Part shown: positions 2,472-12,816 of the stretch, one piece after another | How the letters are laid out: the number at the start of each line of letters is the position of its first letter | Numbering within the stretch: the first letter of the stretch is position 1 | From: Halalkalicoccus subterraneus | GTDB taxonomy: Archaea; Halobacteriota; Halobacteria; Halobacteriales; Halalkalicoccaceae | Assembly (NCBI RefSeq): GCF_003697815.1 | Contig: NZ_RDQG01000034.1 | Coordinates: 1-46,952 of the forward strand | DNA length: 46,952 bases | Direction of reading: 5' to 3' | Translations under genes and position numbers: made by a program | The notes under the pieces: generated by a model | The model's input: only the letters and a program-made list of their open reading frames with translations | Told to the model about the DNA's origin: nothing | The model's database searches: none

Positions 2472-2759
2472 TTATTAGATACTAGGAGATATACGATAAC
2501 AATAAAGATGTTGGCTAAGGAAATAGACGGCAGTTTCTTTCCGAGGTTTGTGGAAAATGACATGTTGTGTGTTAGTAATAGACGTGTTTTGCACGCGAAT
2601 CGAGCAAAGCCGTTGGACGAAATGGCCGGTAGAGCCCCGAACTCGTCGATATCACACCCTCCGCTTCCGAATCATATCTGATAACTTTAAAGATAAATTT
2701 ATAAACATATGAGATCCGATATATATACGGTTCGCCAGCATGGCAGAACCGACAGAATA
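2472..2759. promoter_or_regulatory. Divergent promoter region between the regulator and the archaellin genes
   Basis: 288 bp without a convincing gene, clearly more AT-rich than its surroundings. On the plus side the best TATA element is TTTATAAA at about 2698-2705, which would start transcription near 2730 and give a short leader before the archaellin ATG at 2760. On the minus side, AT-rich sequence about 25 bp upstream of the regulator start would give a leaderless or near-leaderless transcript. Short open frames here have no family features and look like chance. Confidence 0.55.
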
Positions 2760-3278
2760 ATGTTCGAAACACAAACAGAAGACAGGGGTCAGGTCGGTAT
2801 CGGCACCCTCATCGTGTTCATCGCGATGGTACTCGTTGCGGCGATCGCAGCGGGTGTGCTGATCAATACCGCCGGCTTCCTGCAGACACAAGCAGAAGAC
2901 ACTGGTACCGAAAGTACCGAACAGGTCTCCGACCGCGTGCAAGTTCTCTCATCGACTGGGACAGGATTTTCTGCTGGTCAGGTTGACACCGTCGACCTGA
3001 CCATCCAGAAGGCACCCGGCGCGGGTGACATCGTCGTCGAGGACATACTGATCGACTGGGTCGATGGCTCACTAGATCTGAGTGAGGAGACCGGCTACGA
3101 GGATGCCGTCCTCAGTGAGACTACTGACAGGGTGACGATTACCCTTGGAGACGACCTCACCATCCCCGAAGGGGACAGCACAGATCTGACGATCACGACC
3201 GGCTCGGGCGCACAGACGACCCACACCCTGAACGCTCCCAACTACATCTCCGGTGATGAAGTGGCAGTGGGGCTCTAA
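2760..3278 (+). CDS. arlA1: Archaellin (archaellum filament subunit), first of three
   Basis: Major filament protein of the archaellum, secreted as a type III pre-protein. The ATG at 2760 is preferred over an in-frame ATG at 2709 because it gives the standard short leader [10 protein letters not shown], expected to be cut by the prepilin-type peptidase before [11 protein letters not shown] ~30-residue hydrophobic helix then forms the filament core. The remaining ~120 residues are the outer beta domain. The mature protein has no N-x-S/T sequon. The next archaellin starts 2 nt after the stop (TAAGGATG). The number in the symbol marks position only. Confidence 0.95.
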
Positions 3279-3280
3279 GG

Positions 3281-3796
3281 ATGTTCGAGAAAAACAACGC
3301 TGAGAGAGGTCAGGTGGGTATCGGCACCCTCATCGTGTTCATCGCGATGGTACTCGTCGCGGCGATCGCGGCGGGCGTGCTGATCAACACCGCCGGCTTC
3401 CTTCAGACGCAAGCGGAGGACACCGGTACCGAGAGTACCGAACAGGTCTCCGACCGCGTGCAGGTCCTCTCGTCGACCGGGACTGTGACCGGCGGTTCAG
3501 CCGAAGCCGTTGAACTGACCATCCAGAAGGCACCCGGTGCGGGTGACATCGTTCTCGACCAACTCTTCATCGAGTGGGTTGGTGACGTCTCTGGTGAACT
3601 GGACGTGGACTCTGCTACTGAGGATATAGAGGTCCTCAGTGAGACCAGCGAACGAGCAACGATCTCCTTGACGGGTCTTTCTCTCGATCCGGGTCAAAGC
3701 ACAGATCTGACGATCACGACCGGCTCGGGCGCACAGACCGACCACAGCCTGAACGCACCTGACGTCCTCGAAGAGGGCGACACAGTGAGGCTCTAA
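3281..3796 (+). CDS. arlA2: Archaellin, second of three
   Basis: 171-residue archaellin with leader [10 protein letters not shown] and predicted cleavage before [10 protein letters not shown]. The first ~65 mature residues are almost identical to those of the first copy, also at the DNA level; the central outer domain differs, and the segments around [12 protein letters not shown] and [12 protein letters not shown] are again shared. No N-x-S/T sequon is present. It is flanked on both sides by 2-nt spacers with AAGG just before the next ATG, so the three genes are one transcript. Copies of this kind can act as major and minor filament subunits; which role this copy has is unknown. Confidence 0.95.
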
Positions 3797-3798
3797 GG

Positions 3799-4398
3799 AT
3801 GTTTGACGGAAACTCCTCCGAGCGGGGTCAAGTTGGCATCGGCACCCTCATCGTGTTCATCGCGATGGTTCTCGTCGCGGCGATCGCGGCGGGCGTGCTG
3901 ATCAACACCGCCGGCTTCCTCCAGACGCAAGCGGAAGACACGGGTGCCGAAAGCACCCAGCAGGTCTCCGATAACGTCGGCGTCCTCAGCGAGATCGGTA
4001 CTGTCGATAACGAGTCTGGTACCGCTACTGTGGACCAAGTCGACCTCCTCCTCCAGAAATCGCCTGGCGCGGGTGACATCAACCTCGAGGACGCGTCCGT
4101 GCAGTTCCTCGGGCCAGATGGTGCTGAGGACATCGGATTCGCCGAGGCTGCCGGTGACGGCTTCACCGTCGCCGCAGTCTCCGCCGAGAACGGGGACAAC
4201 AGCGTCATGACGGACCGGAGCGACCGGTACCGAGTGAGCCTTAGCCTCTCGGACCTCGACGGTGATATCGGTGCCCTCAGCGAAGGCGACGAGGCCGAAG
4301 TGACGATCACGACGGCATCGGGCGCCCAGCAGATGGTGACGGTTCAGGCTCCCGACACGCTCGCCGGCTCCGAAACTGGCGACTCCGTCCGGCTCTAA
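3799..4398 (+). CDS. arlA3: Archaellin, third of three
   Basis: 199-residue archaellin, the longest of the three, with leader [10 protein letters not shown] and predicted cleavage before [10 protein letters not shown]. The hydrophobic N-terminal helix matches the other two copies; the outer domain is more divergent and about 28 residues longer. Only one sequon (NES) lies in the mature chain; the NSS in the leader is removed. It is the last archaellin before arlF, from which it is separated by 47 bp with no obvious promoter. Its divergence suggests a distinct role such as a minor or terminal subunit, which is inference. Confidence 0.95.
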
Positions 4399-4445
4399 GG
4401 CACGTATCGCTTTCCAACTACTCCACGAATTAACACACTAATCGA

Positions 4446-5231
4446 ATGGGCTTCAGCGTCAGCGGATCCACGGTGGTCATCCTCATCGGCTGTCTGATAG
4501 CGTTCAGTGCGGCCTTCACGGTCGCAACCGACAGCTTCGATAGGACCACGACCGCCCAGGACGACCGCGCTGATCGCCTTCTCGATCGACAGAACACGGC
4601 AATCGAGATCGGTGACGCGACCCGAAACGGGACGACCATCGTTTCGGTCACGAACACCGGTTCGACCGCGTTTTCGATCGATCGCACGGACCTGCTCGAC
4701 GACGGGAACACGACCGGCAATTCCACGGACTCACCCGACGACGGGAACACGACCGACAATTCTACGGACCCACTTGACGACGGGAACACGACCGACAATT
4801 CCACGGATTCACTCGACGACGAAAACACGACCAACGACGATGGTATCTTCGGCGACGACCCGCTCGACGACGGGAACACGACCGACAATTCCACGGACTC
4901 ACCCGACGACGGGAACACGACCGGCAATCTCACACTGATCGAACCGCTCGGCAACGCTACCAACGAGACGACCGTCTCCGTTTCGGTCACGAACACCGGT
5001 TCGACTGCACTCTCGATCGATCGCACGGACCTACTCGTCGACGGCGAGTACGCGACCGACGATCCCATAGTGATCGACGCGACCGGCAACGTCATCGACG
5101 AGACGAACCTATGGGTGCCCGGAGCGACGCTCGCATACGAACTCGAATCGAACGCGACAAGCGTCAAAGTCGTCACCGAGGGCGGCGTCGCCGCGACGGC
5201 CGGCGTCGAGAACGCCTCGGAGGGAGCGTAG
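4446..5231 (+). CDS. arlF: Archaellum stator protein ArlF (FlaF) with a sequon-rich repeat insert
   Basis: Pseudoperiplasmic motor component; in the family it binds the S-layer and anchors the stator. The N-terminus MGFSVSGSTVV plus one membrane helix, a QNTAIEI motif and a beta-sandwich ending near VKVVTEGGVA fit ArlF. The protein is 261 residues; about 148 remain if the insert is removed, which I recall as normal for the family. The extra part is bounded by two copies of the segment VSVTNTGSTA(F/L)SIDRTDLL (DNA copies at 4642-4707 and 4981-5046, 339 bp apart) and holds six 39-bp repeats. There are 16 N-x-S/T sequons in the protein, 11 of them in the repeat tract. It is followed immediately by arlG. 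Confidence 0.9.
   Translation: MGFSVSGSTVVILIGCLIAFSAAFTVATDSFDRTTTAQDDRADRLLDRQNTAIEIGDATRNGTTIVSVTNTGSTAFSIDRTDLLDDGNTTGNSTDSPDDGNTTDNSTDPLDDGNTTDNSTDSLDDENTTNDDGIFGDDPLDDGNTTDNSTDSPDDGNTTGNLTLIEPLGNATNETTVSVSVTNTGSTALSIDRTDLLVDGEYATDDPIVIDATGNVIDETNLWVPGATLAYELESNATSVKVVTEGGVAATAGVENASEGA
4698..4937 (+). repeat. 39-bp in-frame tandem repeat tract inside arlF
   Basis: Six copies of a 39-bp (13-codon) unit begin at 4698, 4737, 4776, 4815, 4866 and 4905. The consensus peptide is DDGNTTDNSTDSP. Copy four is degenerate and followed by a short GIFGDDPL spacer that makes it 51 bp long; copy six is truncated and runs into NLT. Every unit carries one NTT sequon and most carry NST as well. All length changes are multiples of three, so the gene frame is preserved. 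Confidence 0.95.
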
Positions 5232-5702
5232 ATGGGCTCGGTTTCGATCTCCCATCTGATCATCTTCATCGCGAGCCTGCTCATCGCGGCGAGCGTCGCG
5301 GGTACCCTCATCGCGAGCGTCGAGCAAGTCAGCAACTCGGTCGACGAGCAGAGCGAGGACCTCTCACAGCAGGTCGACACCGACCTCACGGTGATCAGCG
5401 ACCCCGCCAGCACGGCGATTTACGAGGAAGAGGACGGAAACGGGACCGTGACCGTCCTCGTGAAAAACACCGGCCGGAGTACGCTCGACGGATCGGAGCT
5501 GGACGTGTTGCTCGACGGGACCTACCGGAACGAACGGACGGTCGATCTCGTCTCGGGCGGGCAGCGGTGGTCCTCGGGGGCCGTCGCGGCGGTCACGATC
5601 GACCTCGACGGTCGCCTCGATGGAGGCGATCACCGCGTGACCGTGATCGCTCACGGCTCCCGGGCGACGTTCGACTTCTATCACGAAACGTCCGGCCAAT
5701 AG
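5232..5702 (+). CDS. arlG: Archaellum stator protein ArlG (FlaG)
   Basis: 156-residue partner of ArlF. In the family, ArlG forms a filament capped by ArlF that links the motor to the S-layer. The sequence starts MGSVSISHLIIFIASLLIAA, a single N-terminal membrane helix with short class-III-like leader, followed by a polar coiled region (SVEQVSNSVDEQSEDL) and a beta domain with the VLVKNTGRSTLDGSELDVLLDG pattern shared with ArlF; I list that stretch by its ends, VLVKNT to LLDG. Its ATG follows the arlF stop directly, so translation is coupled. Length is ordinary for the family and nothing appears damaged. Confidence 0.92.
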   Translation: MGSVSISHLIIFIASLLIAASVAGTLIASVEQVSNSVDEQSEDLSQQVDTDLTVISDPASTAIYEEEDGNGTVTVLVKNTGRSTLDGSELDVLLDGTYRNERTVDLVSGGQRWSSGAVAAVTIDLDGRLDGGDHRVTVIAHGSRATFDFYHETSGQ

Positions 5703-5733: not shown

Positions 5734-6207
5734 ATGACGGGGGACGAACCAAACCCGCAGGAAGAAGGCATCCTCTCACCCTCGGAGCTCGATATCACCG
5801 ACAGCGAGTACGTCGACGAGATCGAGGAGGGACGATACGTCGTCTCGACGGATACGACCTCACCCGACATCCAGCCGTCCCGTTCGCCCGAAGACGGCGG
5901 GACCTCGCTGCCCGATACCGCTTCGTCACGGTACGGCGTCGAGATCGAGGCCCGTATCGAGAACCGATCCTCGACGTATCGCACGCAGTCGGACGACGTC
6001 GTGACGGTGTTCTCCGAGCTCGTCCGGTGGTACGCGACGCAGGTCGATTTGGAACTCCCTCCCGGGCGTGTCCTCCAGATCCTCGTCGCCGAATCGGATC
6101 TCCCGATCGGGCCGCGCCGATCCATCGAGACGGCGCTCGACCGCCACGACCTCTCCCCCGACGATTCGATCGCCGACCTCTGTTCTGCCCTCGAAACGCG
6201 GAACTGA
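5734..6207 (+). CDS. Haloarchaeal che-cluster protein of unknown function
   Basis: 157-residue soluble acidic protein. It has a conserved-looking N-terminal motif (GILSPSELDITDSEYVDEIE), a variable Ser/Pro/Asp-rich linker at about residues 40-65, and a C-terminal helical domain around SDDVVTVFSELVRWYATQ and LQILVAESDLPIG. From memory this pattern matches a family of unknown function found in haloarchaeal taxis clusters (catalogued, I believe, as DUF7500). It sits between arlG and cheY in the same orientation, so a link between taxis signalling and the archaellum is plausible, but no activity can be read from the sequence. Confidence 0.8.
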   Translation: MTGDEPNPQEEGILSPSELDITDSEYVDEIEEGRYVVSTDTTSPDIQPSRSPEDGGTSLPDTASSRYGVEIEARIENRSSTYRTQSDDVVTVFSELVRWYATQVDLELPPGRVLQILVAESDLPIGPRRSIETALDRHDLSPDDSIADLCSALETRN

Positions 6208-6252
6208 TGATCGACTCCACCGTCTCATGTGACGGAGAGAGATAACGTATTA

Positions 6253-6615
6253 ATGACACGAAGCGTGCTGATCGTCGACGATTCCGAGTTCATGCGGAGC
6301 CTCCTGCGGGAGATCCTCACGGGCGAACACGAGGTGGTCGCCGAGGCCGAAAACGGCGTCGAAGCCGTCGAACTGTACGCAAAGCACGACCCGGATCTGG
6401 TGATGATGGATATCGTCATGCCGATCCGCGACGGGATCGAGGCGACGAGGGCGATCACGGAGGACGACCCCGACGCGCGAGTGATCATGTGTACCAGCGT
6501 CGGCCAGGAGGAGAAGATGAAGATGGCCGTCAAAGCCGGCGCGAGCGGGTACATCACGAAACCGTTCCAGAAGCCGAGCGTCCTCGAAGCCATCGACGAC
6601 GTCGTGCCCGCATAG
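6253..6615 (+). CDS. cheY: Chemotaxis response regulator CheY
   Basis: 120-residue single-domain receiver that carries the phosphoryl signal from CheA to the archaellum switch, through CheF in archaea. Acidic pocket residues D9 and D10, phosphoacceptor D53 (in MMDIVMP), T81 in MCTS and K103 in TKPFQKP are all present. The ATG at 6253 is chosen because MTRSVLIVDD is the normal family start; an in-frame GTG at 6229 would add eight residues. The gene appears fully intact, in contrast to the cheC and cheD sequences directly downstream. Confidence 0.95.
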   Translation: MTRSVLIVDDSEFMRSLLREILTGEHEVVAEAENGVEAVELYAKHDPDLVMMDIVMPIRDGIEATRAITEDDPDARVIMCTSVGQEEKMKMAVKAGASGYITKPFQKPSVLEAIDDVVPA

Positions 6616-7597: not shown

Positions 7598-8641
7598 ATG
7601 AGCTTGTTCGATCGCCTTCGTAGCGGCGGGGACGAAGAGGGTACTGCGTCCGACCAGCCAGCGACGGACGGCGGGTCCGAGTCAGATGACCCGTTCGACG
7701 AGGAACTCAACGGGGAGATGGACGAGACGGACGGGTTCGACGACCTCTCGATGGGGGAGGACTCCGAGGAGTACGCCGACGAGGAATTCGAACGTCGGAT
7801 CGACGAGATCGAGACGGAGCTCGCGAGCGTTTCCTCGACGGTCAACACCATCCGCAGCGAGAACGAGGAGATGAGCGAAGCCGTCAGCGAGATCGAAGAG
7901 AACATCCGAAAACTGCTGAACGTCTACGAGATGGTCACGAGGGGGATCAACCCGTTCACCGACGACGAGGTCGATATGGGCGGTGCCGGCGGCTCGATCG
8001 GCCTGTTCGACGACGGCGAGGACGACGACCTCGATGCGGACGTCGCCTCGGCCGATGCCGAGAGCTTCTTCGACGACGATCTCGACGACGACGGCGTCGA
8101 TCCGGCAGTCGACGGCAACGAGGAAGACGCGAGCACCGGCTTCGATGACCTGAAAGACGAGTACGAGTCCGGTGATGCCGATTGGGACGAGGCGGTCGAG
8201 GACGCGGAGTCGGAGCGGGTCGAGGGCACCCTCGTCTCGATCGATTCGGAGCTTACGTACGCCGAGCGAACGCTGAGTGACGCCCCCGAAGCCGAGAAAC
8301 CGTACCTTCGGGGAACCGCCGACGGCTACGTCGCCGATCTCCTCATCCTCGAATGGCTCGAACACCTCGTCGAGACGGCCGGGCTCGACGCCGCCGAGGA
8401 CGCCTTCGAATACTACGAATCGATCCAGTGGATCGACGGGGAGGCCGCAGACCAGCTCCGGGCGTTCGTCGACGGGTTCGACGCCGATGAGGACGAGGTC
8501 GATGACGGGAAGGACGACCCGGCGCTCTCGGTCGCCGATCACACACAGAGTCTGCGCTACATCTGCCAGCTGTCGAGTGGCACCTCGGCCTCGGTCGTCC
8601 TCGACGGATGGAACGACGAGTCACGACGGGCCCAACTATGA
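7598..8641 (+). CDS. arlCE: Archaellum switch-complex protein ArlCE (FlaC/E fusion type)
   Basis: Cytoplasmic switch component; in haloarchaea ArlCE binds CheF and thus receives the CheY-P signal. The 347-residue acidic protein begins MSLFDRLRSGG. It has a long acidic linker, a coiled-coil at about residues 70-115 (IDEIETELASVSSTVNTIRS), a FlaC-like hydrophobic LLNVYEMV motif, a second acidic linker and a C-terminal FlaD/E domain from about residue 215 (YLRGTADGYVADLLILEWLE). The ATG at 7598 is preferred to a GTG at 7589. The stop overlaps the arlH start by 4 nt (ATGA). Confidence 0.92.
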   Translation: MSLFDRLRSGGDEEGTASDQPATDGGSESDDPFDEELNGEMDETDGFDDLSMGEDSEEYADEEFERRIDEIETELASVSSTVNTIRSENEEMSEAVSEIEENIRKLLNVYEMVTRGINPFTDDEVDMGGAGGSIGLFDDGEDDDLDADVASADAESFFDDDLDDDGVDPAVDGNEEDASTGFDDLKDEYESGDADWDEAVEDAESERVEGTLVSIDSELTYAERTLSDAPEAEKPYLRGTADGYVADLLILEWLEHLVETAGLDAAEDAFEYYESIQWIDGEAADQLRAFVDGFDADEDEVDDGKDDPALSVADHTQSLRYICQLSSGTSASVVLDGWNDESRRAQL

Positions 8642-9396
8642 GCGCACATGGACGACTCCTCCCGCTCGGACTGGGCGATCACGACCGGCTCGACACGGCA
8701 CTCGGCGGCGGCCTACCACGGGGCAGCATCGTCCTCATGGAGGGCGATTACGGCGCGGGAAAGAGCGCGCTCTCTCAGCGGTTCAGCTACGGCTTTTGTG
8801 AGACCGACCGAACCGTAACGTTGCTCTCGACCGAACTCACCATCGGCGGGTTCGTCGATCAGATGCACTCGCTTTCGTACGACGTGGTTTCCCACCTGCT
8901 CGACGAGCGATTGCTGTTCCTGCACGCCGACTTCGACACCGGACACACGTTCTCGAGCGAGAGATCGGACGGGGAACGCCGAGAGCTGCTCACCCGGCTG
9001 ATGGAGGCCGAAACCATGTGGGAACCGGAGGTCATCATCCTCGATACGTTCGACGCCATCCTCCGGAACGATCCCACGTTCGAGGCGCTCGTCAGACAGA
9101 ACGACGAGCGCCAGGCCGCCTTAGAGATCATCTCGTTTTTCCGCGAGCTGACCTCGCGGGGCAAGACGATCGTCCTCACCGTCGATCCCTCGACGGTCGA
9201 CGAGGAAGCCATCGGTCCCTTCCGGTCGATCGCGGACGTGTTCTTCCAGCTCCAGATGATCGAGGTCGGCAACGACGTGCGCCGCCAGATCTCCGTCAAA
9301 CGCTTTGCTGGTATGGGCGAGCAGGTCGGGGACACGATCGGCTACTCCGTGCGCTCGGGAACCGGGATCGTAATCGAGAACCGTAACATCGCCTGA
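8638..9396 (+). CDS. arlH: Archaellum motor ATP-binding protein ArlH (FlaH)
   Basis: 252-residue RecA/KaiC-fold protein that binds ATP and regulates the ArlI motor ATPase. Walker A is EGDYGAGKS at residues 35-43. The Walker B stretch VIILDTFD is near residue 132-139, as in ArlH, where the usual second acidic catalytic residue is altered. The start at 8638 is chosen because it makes the 4-nt overlap with arlCE and gives the short family N-terminus MSAHGRLLPLGLG. The gene looks intact and is followed one base later by arlI. Confidence 0.93.
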   Translation: MSAHGRLLPLGLGDHDRLDTALGGGLPRGSIVLMEGDYGAGKSALSQRFSYGFCETDRTVTLLSTELTIGGFVDQMHSLSYDVVSHLLDERLLFLHADFDTGHTFSSERSDGERRELLTRLMEAETMWEPEVIILDTFDAILRNDPTFEALVRQNDERQAALEIISFFRELTSRGKTIVLTVDPSTVDEEAIGPFRSIADVFFQLQMIEVGNDVRRQISVKRFAGMGEQVGDTIGYSVRSGTGIVIENRNIA

Positions 9397-9397
9397 G

Positions 9398-11071
9398 ATG
9401 ACCGACCAGGGTACCGTCAAACCGTCGCGGGAGATCCGCGAGCTCGTCGCCGATCAACCCCATCTGCGCGAGCACCTGCTGAAGATGAAACAGATCAGCG
9501 GCGAGTTTCCCCTCCTCATCGAGAAGGCTGACGGCGAGTACGAAACCCACTACCCGAACGTCCTGTACCCCGTCGGCGGGCCGATCTACTGTCACATCTA
9601 CGGCGACGTCGGTAAAGCGACGACCTACCACGTCGTCGAACCGACGCTCTCGGAAACGGATCTCGACCTCTATGAGGACGTCAAAAGCGAGCTGCTGCGA
9701 AAGAGCGTCGACCACACAGCCCCCGAAAACGAAGGCGAGTACGGCGACCGAATCGAGGAACTGCTCGCGGCGACGACCACGACCGAGGACGCGCCGTCCG
9801 GCTGGAAGGAGTCCCTCTCGGGGGTGCTCTCGACGGGCCGGTATCACGTCTCGCCCGAGACGTACGCGAACCTGCGCTACCGTCTCAACCGCGACATCGT
9901 CGGGCTCGGCCCCCTCGAAGCCGTCCTTCGGGATCCCGCAAACGAGGACATCCACGTCATCGGGCCCCACGAGTGTTACGTCGACCACAGCGTCTTCGGT
10001 ATGATGAAAACGACCGTCGATTTCGGCACACCCGAACGGTTCCAGCAGTGGATTCGGAACCTGGGCGAACGCATCGGCGACCCCGTCAGCGACGCCGATC
10101 CGATCATCGACTCCACGCTCCCCGATGGCTCGCGGCTCAACCTGATTTACTCGGACGACGTGAGCATCAAGGGCCCGAGTCTCACCATCCGACAGGGCGA
10201 CGAAGTTCCCCTCTCGGTGGCACAGATCACCGACTGGGGCACTCTTTCGCCCGAGCTCGCCGCCTACCTGTGGCTCTGTCTCGAAAACGAACAGACGGTC
10301 TTCGTCGTCGGCGAGACTGCCTCGGGCAAGACGACGACGCTCAACGCGATCATGTCGTTCATCCCGCGTGACTCGAAGATCTACACCGCCGAGGACACCG
10401 CGGAGGTGCTGCCACCCCACGACACCTGGCAGCAGCTGCTGACCCGCGAGAGCCGCGGCGGCGACAGCAAGGGCGTCAGCATGTTCGACCTCGTGGCCGC
10501 GGCGCTGCGTTCGCGGCCCGATTACATCGTCGTAGGCGAGGTCCGTGGTGAGGAGGGGCGGATGGCGTTTCAGGCCGCCCAGACGGGCCACCCGGTGATG
10601 CTCACCTTCCACGCAAGCGACATCGTCTCGATGGTCCAGCGCTTTACCGGCGATCCGATCAACATCCCCGAGACGTTCATGGACAACGCGGACGTCGCGA
10701 TCTTTCAGAACCGCGTCAAGCAGGGCGACGACGTCCTCCGGCGGGTCACGAGCGTCCAGGAGATCGAGGGCTACTCGAAGGAGATGGACGGCGTCGTCAC
10801 CCGACAGGTGTTCTACTGGGACCCCGTTGAGGACGAGATCGTCTTCCAGGGGATGAACAACTCCTACGTGCTCGAAGAGCAAATCGCCACCCTGCTCGGA
10901 TACGCGAACACCCGCGAAATCTACACCGACCTGGAGTTCCGCGCCGAGATCATCGAGCACATGATCGAGGAGGGGATCACCGAGTACTACGACGTGAACG
11001 AGACGATCGCCACGTTCCAGCGCGACGGTATCGAGGGGCTCCCCTTCGATATCCACCGGACGAGGCGATGA
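9398..11071 (+). CDS. arlI: Archaellum motor ATPase ArlI (FlaI)
   Basis: Hexameric secretion-superfamily ATPase that drives archaellum assembly and rotation. The 557 residues include an N-terminal domain with a LREHLLKMKQISGEFPLL segment that interacts with ArlJ in the family. A long acidic loop lies at about 110-140. The ATPase core has Walker A GETASGKTTT near 304-313, an Asp box around IYTAEDTAEV, Walker B IVVGEVRGEE near 375 and a His box around MLTFHAS. All motifs are intact. It overlaps arlJ by 4 nt (ATGA), and one base separates it from arlH. Confidence 0.96.
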   Translation: MTDQGTVKPSREIRELVADQPHLREHLLKMKQISGEFPLLIEKADGEYETHYPNVLYPVGGPIYCHIYGDVGKATTYHVVEPTLSETDLDLYEDVKSELLRKSVDHTAPENEGEYGDRIEELLAATTTTEDAPSGWKESLSGVLSTGRYHVSPETYANLRYRLNRDIVGLGPLEAVLRDPANEDIHVIGPHECYVDHSVFGMMKTTVDFGTPERFQQWIRNLGERIGDPVSDADPIIDSTLPDGSRLNLIYSDDVSIKGPSLTIRQGDEVPLSVAQITDWGTLSPELAAYLWLCLENEQTVFVVGETASGKTTTLNAIMSFIPRDSKIYTAEDTAEVLPPHDTWQQLLTRESRGGDSKGVSMFDLVAAALRSRPDYIVVGEVRGEEGRMAFQAAQTGHPVMLTFHASDIVSMVQRFTGDPINIPETFMDNADVAIFQNRVKQGDDVLRRVTSVQEIEGYSKEMDGVVTRQVFYWDPVEDEIVFQGMNNSYVLEEQIATLLGYANTREIYTDLEFRAEIIEHMIEEGITEYYDVNETIATFQRDGIEGLPFDIHRTRR

Positions 11072-12816
11072 TGGCGGCGAGCAACTTTCGCGACGGGATC
11101 TCCGAGGCGCTCTCGACGACGATGAGCGAGACCATCCAGTCCTACCGCTATATGGATATGGCTGTCGAGCGGTACGTGATGCTCGTCGTGCTACCCGCCG
11201 GCGTGCTGTTTCTCTGCTCACTGGTGGCGGGCCTGCTCCTTCCGTACCCGTTGTTCGTCCGCCTCCCGATCCCGCTGTTGGGACTGCTCGCGCTCGGCGC
11301 GGGCCTCGTCTACCCGAAACTGCTCGCAAGCAGGCGCAAGATCGAGATCGAAAACCAGTTCCACCTGCTGATCACTCACATGACGATCCTCTCGACGACC
11401 AACATCGATCGGATGGAGGTCTTTCGGATCCTCTCCCGGGAGGATGAATACGGCGAGCTCGCCCGCGAGATGGGCCGGATCGTCCAGATCGTCGATACGT
11501 GGAACCAGAGCCTCGACGACGCCTGCCGCCGGCGAGCGGCCGTCGTTCCCAGCGATGCGCTCGCGGACTTCCTCGACCGCCTCGCCTACACGCTCGGTGC
11601 CGGCCAAGCCCTCTCCGATTTCCTCGTCTCCGAACAGGACGTCATGATCAGCCAGTACACCACCGTCTACGAGAGCACGCTCGGCAACATCGAGGTGATG
11701 AAGGACCTCTACATGTCGATGATCCTCTCGATGACGTTCGCGCTCGTGTTCGCGATCGTCCTCCCGATCCTAACGGGGACGAACCCCACCTATACGGTGG
11801 CGGCCGTGTTACTGATGTTCATGTTCGTCCAGCTCGGGTTTTACTTCGTCATTCGGACGATGTCGCCCCACGACCCGATCTGGTTTCACCCCGAGAAACT
11901 CCGTCCGAGCGGCGAGGGGCGCCTCCTCGCGAGTTTCGTCGTCGGCGGGGCGTTGTCGGTGCTGTTGATCGTGCTGGCGGCGTTCGGCCTGTTCGGGGTC
12001 GGGCCGATCGGCCTGCACACGCTGTTCTTGCGCGACTCGTTTCCCGAGCCGCTGTACCTCGCGCTCCCGCTGACGCCGCTGTTGCTCCCCGGGCTCGTCA
12101 TCCGGCACGAAGAACAGTTGATCATGGGTCGTGACGAGGAGTTTCCGAGCTTCATCCGCGCGCTCGGTGCAAGCGAGAGCGCGAAGCGGAGTACGACCTC
12201 GGACGTGCTCTCGACGCTCCGGACGAAGGACTTCGGGCCGCTTTCGGACGAGATCGACGACCTCTACAAGCGCCTCAACATGCGACTGGACCCCTCGCTC
12301 TCGTGGCGCTACTTCGCGACCGACGCGCGCTCGTATCTGATCCAGAAGTTCAGCGAAATGTACCTCGTCGGCCGGGAGATGGGTGGTAGTCCACGTCGAC
12401 TCGGCGAACTGATCAGTACGAACATGAGCGAAGTAAACCAGCTCCGTGAACAGCGCCAGCAGGCGGCGACGACCCTGATCGGCCTCCTCTACGGTATCAC
12501 CGCCGCTTCGGCCTTCGCATTTTTCATCGGCCTTGAGGTCGTCGCGATCCTTTCGGGGATGGACATCGATATGACGGCGACACAACAGCTCGGGCTGGGA
12601 CAGCTCATTTACACCGACGTCTACGACATCGACCTCATCCGCTACCTGCTGTTGGTCGTCATCCTGTTCAACGCGTTGCTCTCGGCGATCATGATCCGCA
12701 CCGTCGACGGCGGCAACAAGGCGAACTCCTACATCCACTTCGTGTTTCTGACGTGGCTGGGTTGTCTCACCGCCGTCGTAACGACACATCTCGTCGACCT
12801 GTTCTTGGACGTCTGA
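11068..12816 (+). CDS. arlJ: Archaellum motor membrane platform protein ArlJ (FlaJ)
   Basis: Polytopic membrane protein on which ArlI acts during assembly and rotation. 582 residues with hydrophobic segments near residues 30-85, 215-260, 285-320 and 330-350, then a large cytoplasmic domain and C-terminal helices (about 470-580). The two T2SF-like cytoplasmic domains, with the charged MGRIVQIVD and YLVGREMGGSPRR regions, fit the family. It closes the operon; the stop lies 9 bp from the stop of the convergent cheF gene, so the two motility operons run head-on. Confidence 0.94.
   Translation: MMAASNFRDGISEALSTTMSETIQSYRYMDMAVERYVMLVVLPAGVLFLCSLVAGLLLPYPLFVRLPIPLLGLLALGAGLVYPKLLASRRKIEIENQFHLLITHMTILSTTNIDRMEVFRILSREDEYGELAREMGRIVQIVDTWNQSLDDACRRRAAVVPSDALADFLDRLAYTLGAGQALSDFLVSEQDVMISQYTTVYESTLGNIEVMKDLYMSMILSMTFALVFAIVLPILTGTNPTYTVAAVLLMFMFVQLGFYFVIRTMSPHDPIWFHPEKLRPSGEGRLLASFVVGGALSVLLIVLAAFGLFGVGPIGLHTLFLRDSFPEPLYLALPLTPLLLPGLVIRHEEQLIMGRDEEFPSFIRALGASESAKRSTTSDVLSTLRTKDFGPLSDEIDDLYKRLNMRLDPSLSWRYFATDARSYLIQKFSEMYLVGREMGGSPRRLGELISTNMSEVNQLREQRQQAATTLIGLLYGITAASAFAFFIGLEVVAILSGMDIDMTATQQLGLGQLIYTDVYDIDLIRYLLLVVILFNALLSAIMIRTVDGGNKANSYIHFVFLTWLGCLTAVVTTHLVDLFLDV

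Follow-up and report, generated by a model that had tools for sequence, protein, structure and literature searches.

Halalkalicoccus subterraneus encodes what appears to be a functional ArlF, a stator protein of the archaellum, in which the turn of the beta1-beta2 hairpin has been expanded by intragenic duplication into an arm that possibly bears glycans; we assign this reading a probability of roughly 0.6. The protein is a real, well-delimited and lineage-specific ArlF variant, and it was found in one genome. In Sulfolobus, ArlF is a component of the pseudoperiplasmic stator and is required for motility (PMC8667602, PMC8978795); there it caps ArlG filaments and binds the S-layer, as has been shown for S. 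acidocaldarius (PMC8667602).

Genomic context of arlF

The window analysed here is the whole of contig C34 (NZ_RDQG01000034.1; 46,952 nt) of the H. subterraneus assembly GCF_003697815.1, a 3.61-Mb draft in 101 contigs. The archaellum cluster that surrounds arlF in the window is complete and intact:

2709..4398, plus strand: three tandem archaellin genes, all three with the archaellin N-terminal domain (TIGR02537)
4446..5231, plus strand: arlF, archaellum stator protein with an expanded loop, 261 aa (NCBIfam NF052590)
5232..5702, plus strand: arlG, partner stator protein of ordinary length, 156 aa (NF052591, 180.5 bits)
5734-6207: DUF7500 gene (PF24332, 147 bits)
6229-6615: cheY
8608..12816, plus strand: arlH, arlI and arlJ, the remainder of the archaellum motor cluster (NF052589, 324 bits; NF058587, 860 bits; NF004704, 733 bits)

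The initial annotation had named the gene as arlF, and this is borne out by the ArlF profile NF052590, which the encoded protein matches with 145 bits against a curated cut-off of 110. The match falls in two stretches, one on each side of the insert. The gene is present as a single copy in the host genome and its reading frame is intact; arlG begins immediately after its stop codon, and arlH, arlI and arlJ follow downstream.

Several observations concern the neighbouring genes. The N-terminal third is almost identical among the three archaellins (2709-4398). In the first of them (2709-3278) the first-ATG call includes 17 additional N-terminal residues, and the ATG at 2760 fits archaellins 2 and 3 better. 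N-x-S/T sequons are absent from archaellins 1 and 2 and number one or two in archaellin 3, versus 16 in ArlF; the archaellins of several congeners are likewise sequon-poor (0-2). The DUF7500 gene sits between arlG and cheY, a similar-looking gene was seen by eye after arlG in another genome (G004, locus L008), and it is possible that the DUF7500 gene encodes an unrecognised archaellum-associated protein. Antisense to the whole of arlF runs an open frame of 327 aa (4430-5413, minus strand), which probably results from high G+C codon usage.

Repeat structure of the insert

The insert consists of tandem in-frame units bearing N-x-S/T, set between two copies of a native segment, A, with the last unit passing into a diverged copy of a second native segment, B:

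4641..4697, plus strand: copy 1 of native segment A, VSVTNTGSTAFSIDRTDLL, residues 66-84, identical to copy 2 at 52/57 nt
4698..4736, plus strand: unit 1 (u1), 39 bp, DDGNTTGNSTDSP
4737..4775, plus strand: unit 2 (u2), 39 bp, DDGNTTDNSTDPL
4776..4814, plus strand: unit 3 (u3), 39 bp, DDGNTTDNSTDSL
4815..4865, plus strand: unit 4 (u4), degenerate, 51 bp, DDENTTNDDGIFGDDPL
4866..4904, plus strand: unit 5 (u5), 39 bp, DDGNTTDNSTDSP
4905..4979, plus strand: unit 6 (u6) passing into the tail, DDGNTTGNLTLIEPLGNATNETTVS, a diverged copy of native segment B
4980..5036, plus strand: copy 2 of native segment A, residues 179-197, in the beta-sandwich according to the model
5037..5111, plus strand: native segment B, VDGEYATDDPIVIDATGNVIDETNL, aligned to the ArlF of four congeners

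Units u1 to u3 were placed by TRF together with a unit alignment in register, and u4 and u5 by the unit alignment. TRF reported a period of 39 at 4695-4832 (score 220), together with a compound one of 78 across 4681-4929, and the 39-bp array is by far the strongest tandem array in the window. Two near-identical copies of about 66 bp, described earlier as lying 339 bp apart, were confirmed as a direct repeat at 4640-4705 and 4979-5044 with 91% identity and a start-to-start spacing of 339. The same account had six 39-bp repeats between them: the count of six stands, but u4 is degenerate and 51 bp long, and u6 merges into a non-repeat tail. Units u1 and u5 differ by a single codon. The distance from copy 1 to copy 2 is 113 codons, and their removal from the 261 residues, which had been said to restore the ordinary size of the family, leaves 148 residues, exactly as many as in the ArlF of the nearest relative (G001).

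The insert is strongly acidic, with 28 Asp/Glu and 1 Arg in 113 residues. The 11 sequons that had been counted in about 80 residues are all present, within residues 88-161, and two further sequons in the tail (170 and 173) bring the insert to 13 and the whole protein to 16, versus 0-3 in the ArlFs of congeners. Shuffling the insert yields 4.4 ± 1.7 sequons versus the actual 13, a difference which shows only that the unit is sequon-dense, since the repeats make the 13 sequons non-independent.

Origin of the insert

We regard the mechanism of origin as firm on the evidence of the nucleotide sequence, and distinguish three steps. First, about 135 bp of arlF, comprising segment A and segment B (about 45 codons), were duplicated in tandem and in frame. 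The first B copy then acquired point changes that turned native codons into sequons, with TAC GCG ACC (YAT) becoming AAC ACG ACC (NTT) and GAT CCC ATA (DPI) becoming AAT TCC ACG (NST). Finally, a 39-bp piece of one copy expanded to six units, giving the in-frame insert of 113 residues. That duplication, codon change and 39-bp expansion all took place is in our judgement highly probable; the relative order of divergence and expansion is one that we infer.

The tail (4902-4978) is identical at 54 of 77 nt to the native sequence 135 bp away (5037-5113), versus a mean of 27 and a maximum of 42 for same-register codon shuffles. Compared codon by codon, the tail and native B are mostly one base apart. 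The tail also matches the native segment of G001 at 46 of 69 nt, more than at any other in-frame position (shuffles averaged 32.7 and reached at most 42); the ArlF of this nearest relative is 148 aa long, and the DNA flanks of the insert are 91% and 87% identical to it. Judged from divergence, the age of the insert is only loosely set, as the A copies are 91% alike and the B copies about 70%.

Since the 39-bp unit and the tail that precedes copy 2 both derive from native ArlF codons, no foreign sequence was inserted. A foreign or mobile origin was considered and is ruled out by the lack of a genomic counterpart (elsewhere in the host genome the best match to the repeat DNA is 34 nt, and no other protein matching the insert was found there) together with the match of tail and units to native arlF codons. 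This native-codon origin of the unit and the tail was absent from the initial annotation.

Distribution among haloarchaea

The class-wide sample comprised 391 genomes, of which 300 had a match to the ArlF model. Match spans were inspected in all 300, with 113 intermediate and 32 weak matches besides about 150 others; among the weak matches, three were other archaellin-type matches only and one was cut by a contig end. Full-length ArlF matches span 384-504 nt versus 783 nt in H. subterraneus, and none of the other 296 haloarchaeal genomes in which ArlF was matched has an insert of such size. The ArlFs of four congeners are 145-150 aa long and without insert, and in the second genus of the family one species has a 161-aa ArlF with a C-terminal tail. 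The length comparison thus upholds the expectation that the insert is not common in haloarchaeal ArlFs. It had further been stated that no ArlF of this kind was described, and none comparable was found in the literature searched.

With 261 aa, the protein exceeds the usual range, from about 137 residues (the profile) to about 150, a range that is common rather than defining, since ArlFs of up to 206 aa exist. The longest other ArlF read (L103; 1288-1905, minus strand), one of the 32 weak matches, is this 206-aa protein, with a long acidic insertion in a loop further along the chain and an acidic extension at the C terminus, and ArlF loops therefore expand independently in another lineage. Short acidic inserts of about 10-25 residues occupy the same turn as the H. 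subterraneus insert in L102, L090, L155 (Natronorubrum texcoconense) and L148 (Halorubrum sp.), and their presence in other haloarchaea indicates that the beta1-beta2 turn tolerates length change.

Two other matches from the survey were of a different kind. In G388 a second ArlF-like match of 103 bits (C57:177406-177810) lies within a 636-aa open frame, alongside a normal ArlF. A candidate truncated ArlF in G004 was actually ArlG at a contig edge.

Predicted structure

Structure prediction of the contact between ArlF, ArlG and the S-layer, with and without the tract, had been suggested at the outset; the H. subterraneus ArlF and the ArlF of an insert-free relative were modelled. Comparison of the insert-bearing and insert-free AlphaFold2 models places the insert exactly in the beta1-beta2 turn and predicts it to be mostly disordered. 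In an insert-free ArlF (L126; mean pLDDT 76.6) a helix at 6-47 is followed by beta1 (53-61), a two-residue turn and beta2 (64-71), and the modelled fold matches S. acidocaldarius FlaG/FlaF structures (5tuh, E 7e-5; 6pbk, E 8e-5; 4p94, E 4e-4). The H. subterraneus model likewise has a helix (5-48) and an archaellin-type beta-sandwich, formed by beta1 (53-61), beta2 (176-183) and strands onward to 253. Residues 64-172 are mostly below pLDDT 50, the model as a whole has 93 residues below that value, and the blocks of residues 181-260 reach about 79-90, as confident as the native model. The pTM of the whole protein is 0.45. A fold search with the full-length model returned 0 PDB matches at E<=0.001, as is expected with 93 residues below pLDDT 50, and a PDB sequence search with the H. 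subterraneus ArlF alone returned nothing relevant.

Based on these models, we believe that copy 2 of segment A probably enters the ArlF sandwich and that residues about 64-172 would form a mostly disordered, strongly acidic loop on the extracytoplasmic domain. The choice of copy is biased in the prediction, as the alignment fed to AlphaFold2 put the relatives on copy 2, and copy 1 could pair instead. The claim that the insert is outside the membrane agrees with the model and with homology to S. acidocaldarius ArlF/ArlG, for which the topology has been described (PMC8667602).

Function of the expanded turn

The host genome encodes the oligosaccharyltransferase AglB/STT3 (TIGR04154, 866 bits, contig C79), which makes glycosylation of the insert possible, and some of the 13 insert sequons may carry glycans. 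Haloarchaeal archaellins are N-glycosylated, with glycosylation required for motility (PMC6591318, PMC8241124), and a use of N-glycans in the binding of ArlF to the S-layer has been speculated upon (PMC11607397). In the last step of our model, AglB would glycosylate some of the 13 sequons to give a flexible, hydrophilic and possibly glycan-bearing stator arm, which may serve to shield the stator, or to widen or soften its contact with the envelope, while lying outside the torque-bearing core. We put this step forward tentatively. It is unlikely that a densely N-glycosylated disordered arm, evolved in one species from its own codons, serves as a physical link or tunable coupling between stator and envelope; if it did, the contact between the two would be glycan-mediated.

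A separate observation concerns a member of the same genus (G006), whose 97%-complete genome holds zero AglB candidates by TIGR04154; at its locus L002, ArlF is without a sequon and ArlG has two.

A functional-looking ArlF with a possibly glycan-bearing arm has to be weighed against neutral expansion, in which the insert in a length-tolerant surface turn is functionless and its sequons simply follow from the Asn/Thr/Asp-rich composition of the unit. We place this explanation slightly below even odds and keep it as a near-equal rival, since nothing beyond their youth points to constraint on the units and the sister species is without the insert. Haloarchaea differ in the length of the turn, and of about 297 genomes with an ArlF only one has the insert. 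Secreted proteins of halophiles typically have acidic disordered loops. Moreover, retention of the sequons among the units is no sign of selection, given that the units are too young, that the NTT codons are identical across all six of them, silent sites included, and that several of the differences between units are non-synonymous. However, the gene, its frame and its partner genes are intact despite about 30% nucleotide change in the tail copy, and both unit sequons required coordinated changes in adjacent codons.

The remaining explanations fare less well. The array could be a length-variable contingency locus, with the number of units shifting between cells in 13-residue in-frame steps and changing the stator surface but never switching it off. 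A 39-bp period preserves the frame, and near-identical units such as u1 and u5, one codon apart, permit slippage or recombination; however, the degenerate u4 interrupts the array, and an array of six copies whose longest exact repeat is 38 bp is modest, which makes such a locus improbable. That the insert breaks the fold, in an organism that is non-motile or losing motility, is suggested by the duplication of part of the beta-sandwich within a tightly packed domain, but we consider a damaged stator quite unlikely given that the frame is intact, that the core is predicted with the same confidence as in the native model (pLDDT about 79-90) and that the complete arl and cheY cluster is retained.

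The initial annotation had proposed a spacer tuned to S-layer thickness or surface chemistry. Its premise of a stator that binds the S-layer comes from Sulfolobus biochemistry (PMC8667602), and the insert is extracytoplasmic by homology. Against the proposal, the congeners do without the insert and have an ordinary ArlF, nothing indicates a different envelope in H. subterraneus, and only minor differences emerged when ArlF from archaea with and without an S-layer was compared by AlphaFold (PMC12448462). The S-layer model TIGR04216 was above cut-off in 0/7 family genomes but also in only 3/35 control haloarchaea, so that it is unusable as a marker. The idea of an S-layer spacer thus found no support, and we hold it to be very unlikely. 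Finally, although tandem repeats are error-prone and the unit count rests on a 101-contig draft, an artefact of short-read assembly is highly implausible, since the longest exact repeat in arlF is 38 bp, the copies are mutually diverged and the insert is in frame; misassembly could at most alter the number of units.

Comparison with known systems

The H. subterraneus ArlF, one loop of which has 13 additional sequons, and the loop-free ArlF of a sister species make a ready-made comparison that bears on the anchoring of the archaellum motor by ArlF outside Sulfolobus and on the proposed role of glycans in its binding to the envelope (PMC11607397). The insert also clearly illustrates, on a small scale, how duplication, codon change and slippage have produced a new protein segment in a part of a conserved machine.

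The H. subterraneus protein resembles ordinary ArlF (FlaF; NF052590; 4P94, 5TUG and 6PBK of S. acidocaldarius) in its N-terminal helix, its beta-sandwich core, its position between the archaellins and arlG, and its score, and differs from it by the 113-residue repeat-built insert in the beta1-beta2 turn. It shares with the ArlFs of L102, L090, L155 and L148 an acidic, extra-long turn with the same insertion point, whereas their inserts of 10-25 residues are not repeat-built and have few or no sequons. The Sulfolobales archaellin ArlB offers a parallel in its glycosylation sub-domain, in that all of its N-glycans are on an added part of an archaellin-fold protein (PMC11607397). In that case, the sub-domain is folded, belongs to a filament protein and bears proven glycans, in contrast to the stator tract of H. 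subterraneus, which is predicted to be disordered and whose glycans are putative. Similarly, intragenic tandem repeats of microbial surface proteins (for example, PMC2996958) consist of in-frame units in an exposed region of the protein; unlike these, the H. subterraneus insert lies in a motor component and has been built from the host gene's own codons.
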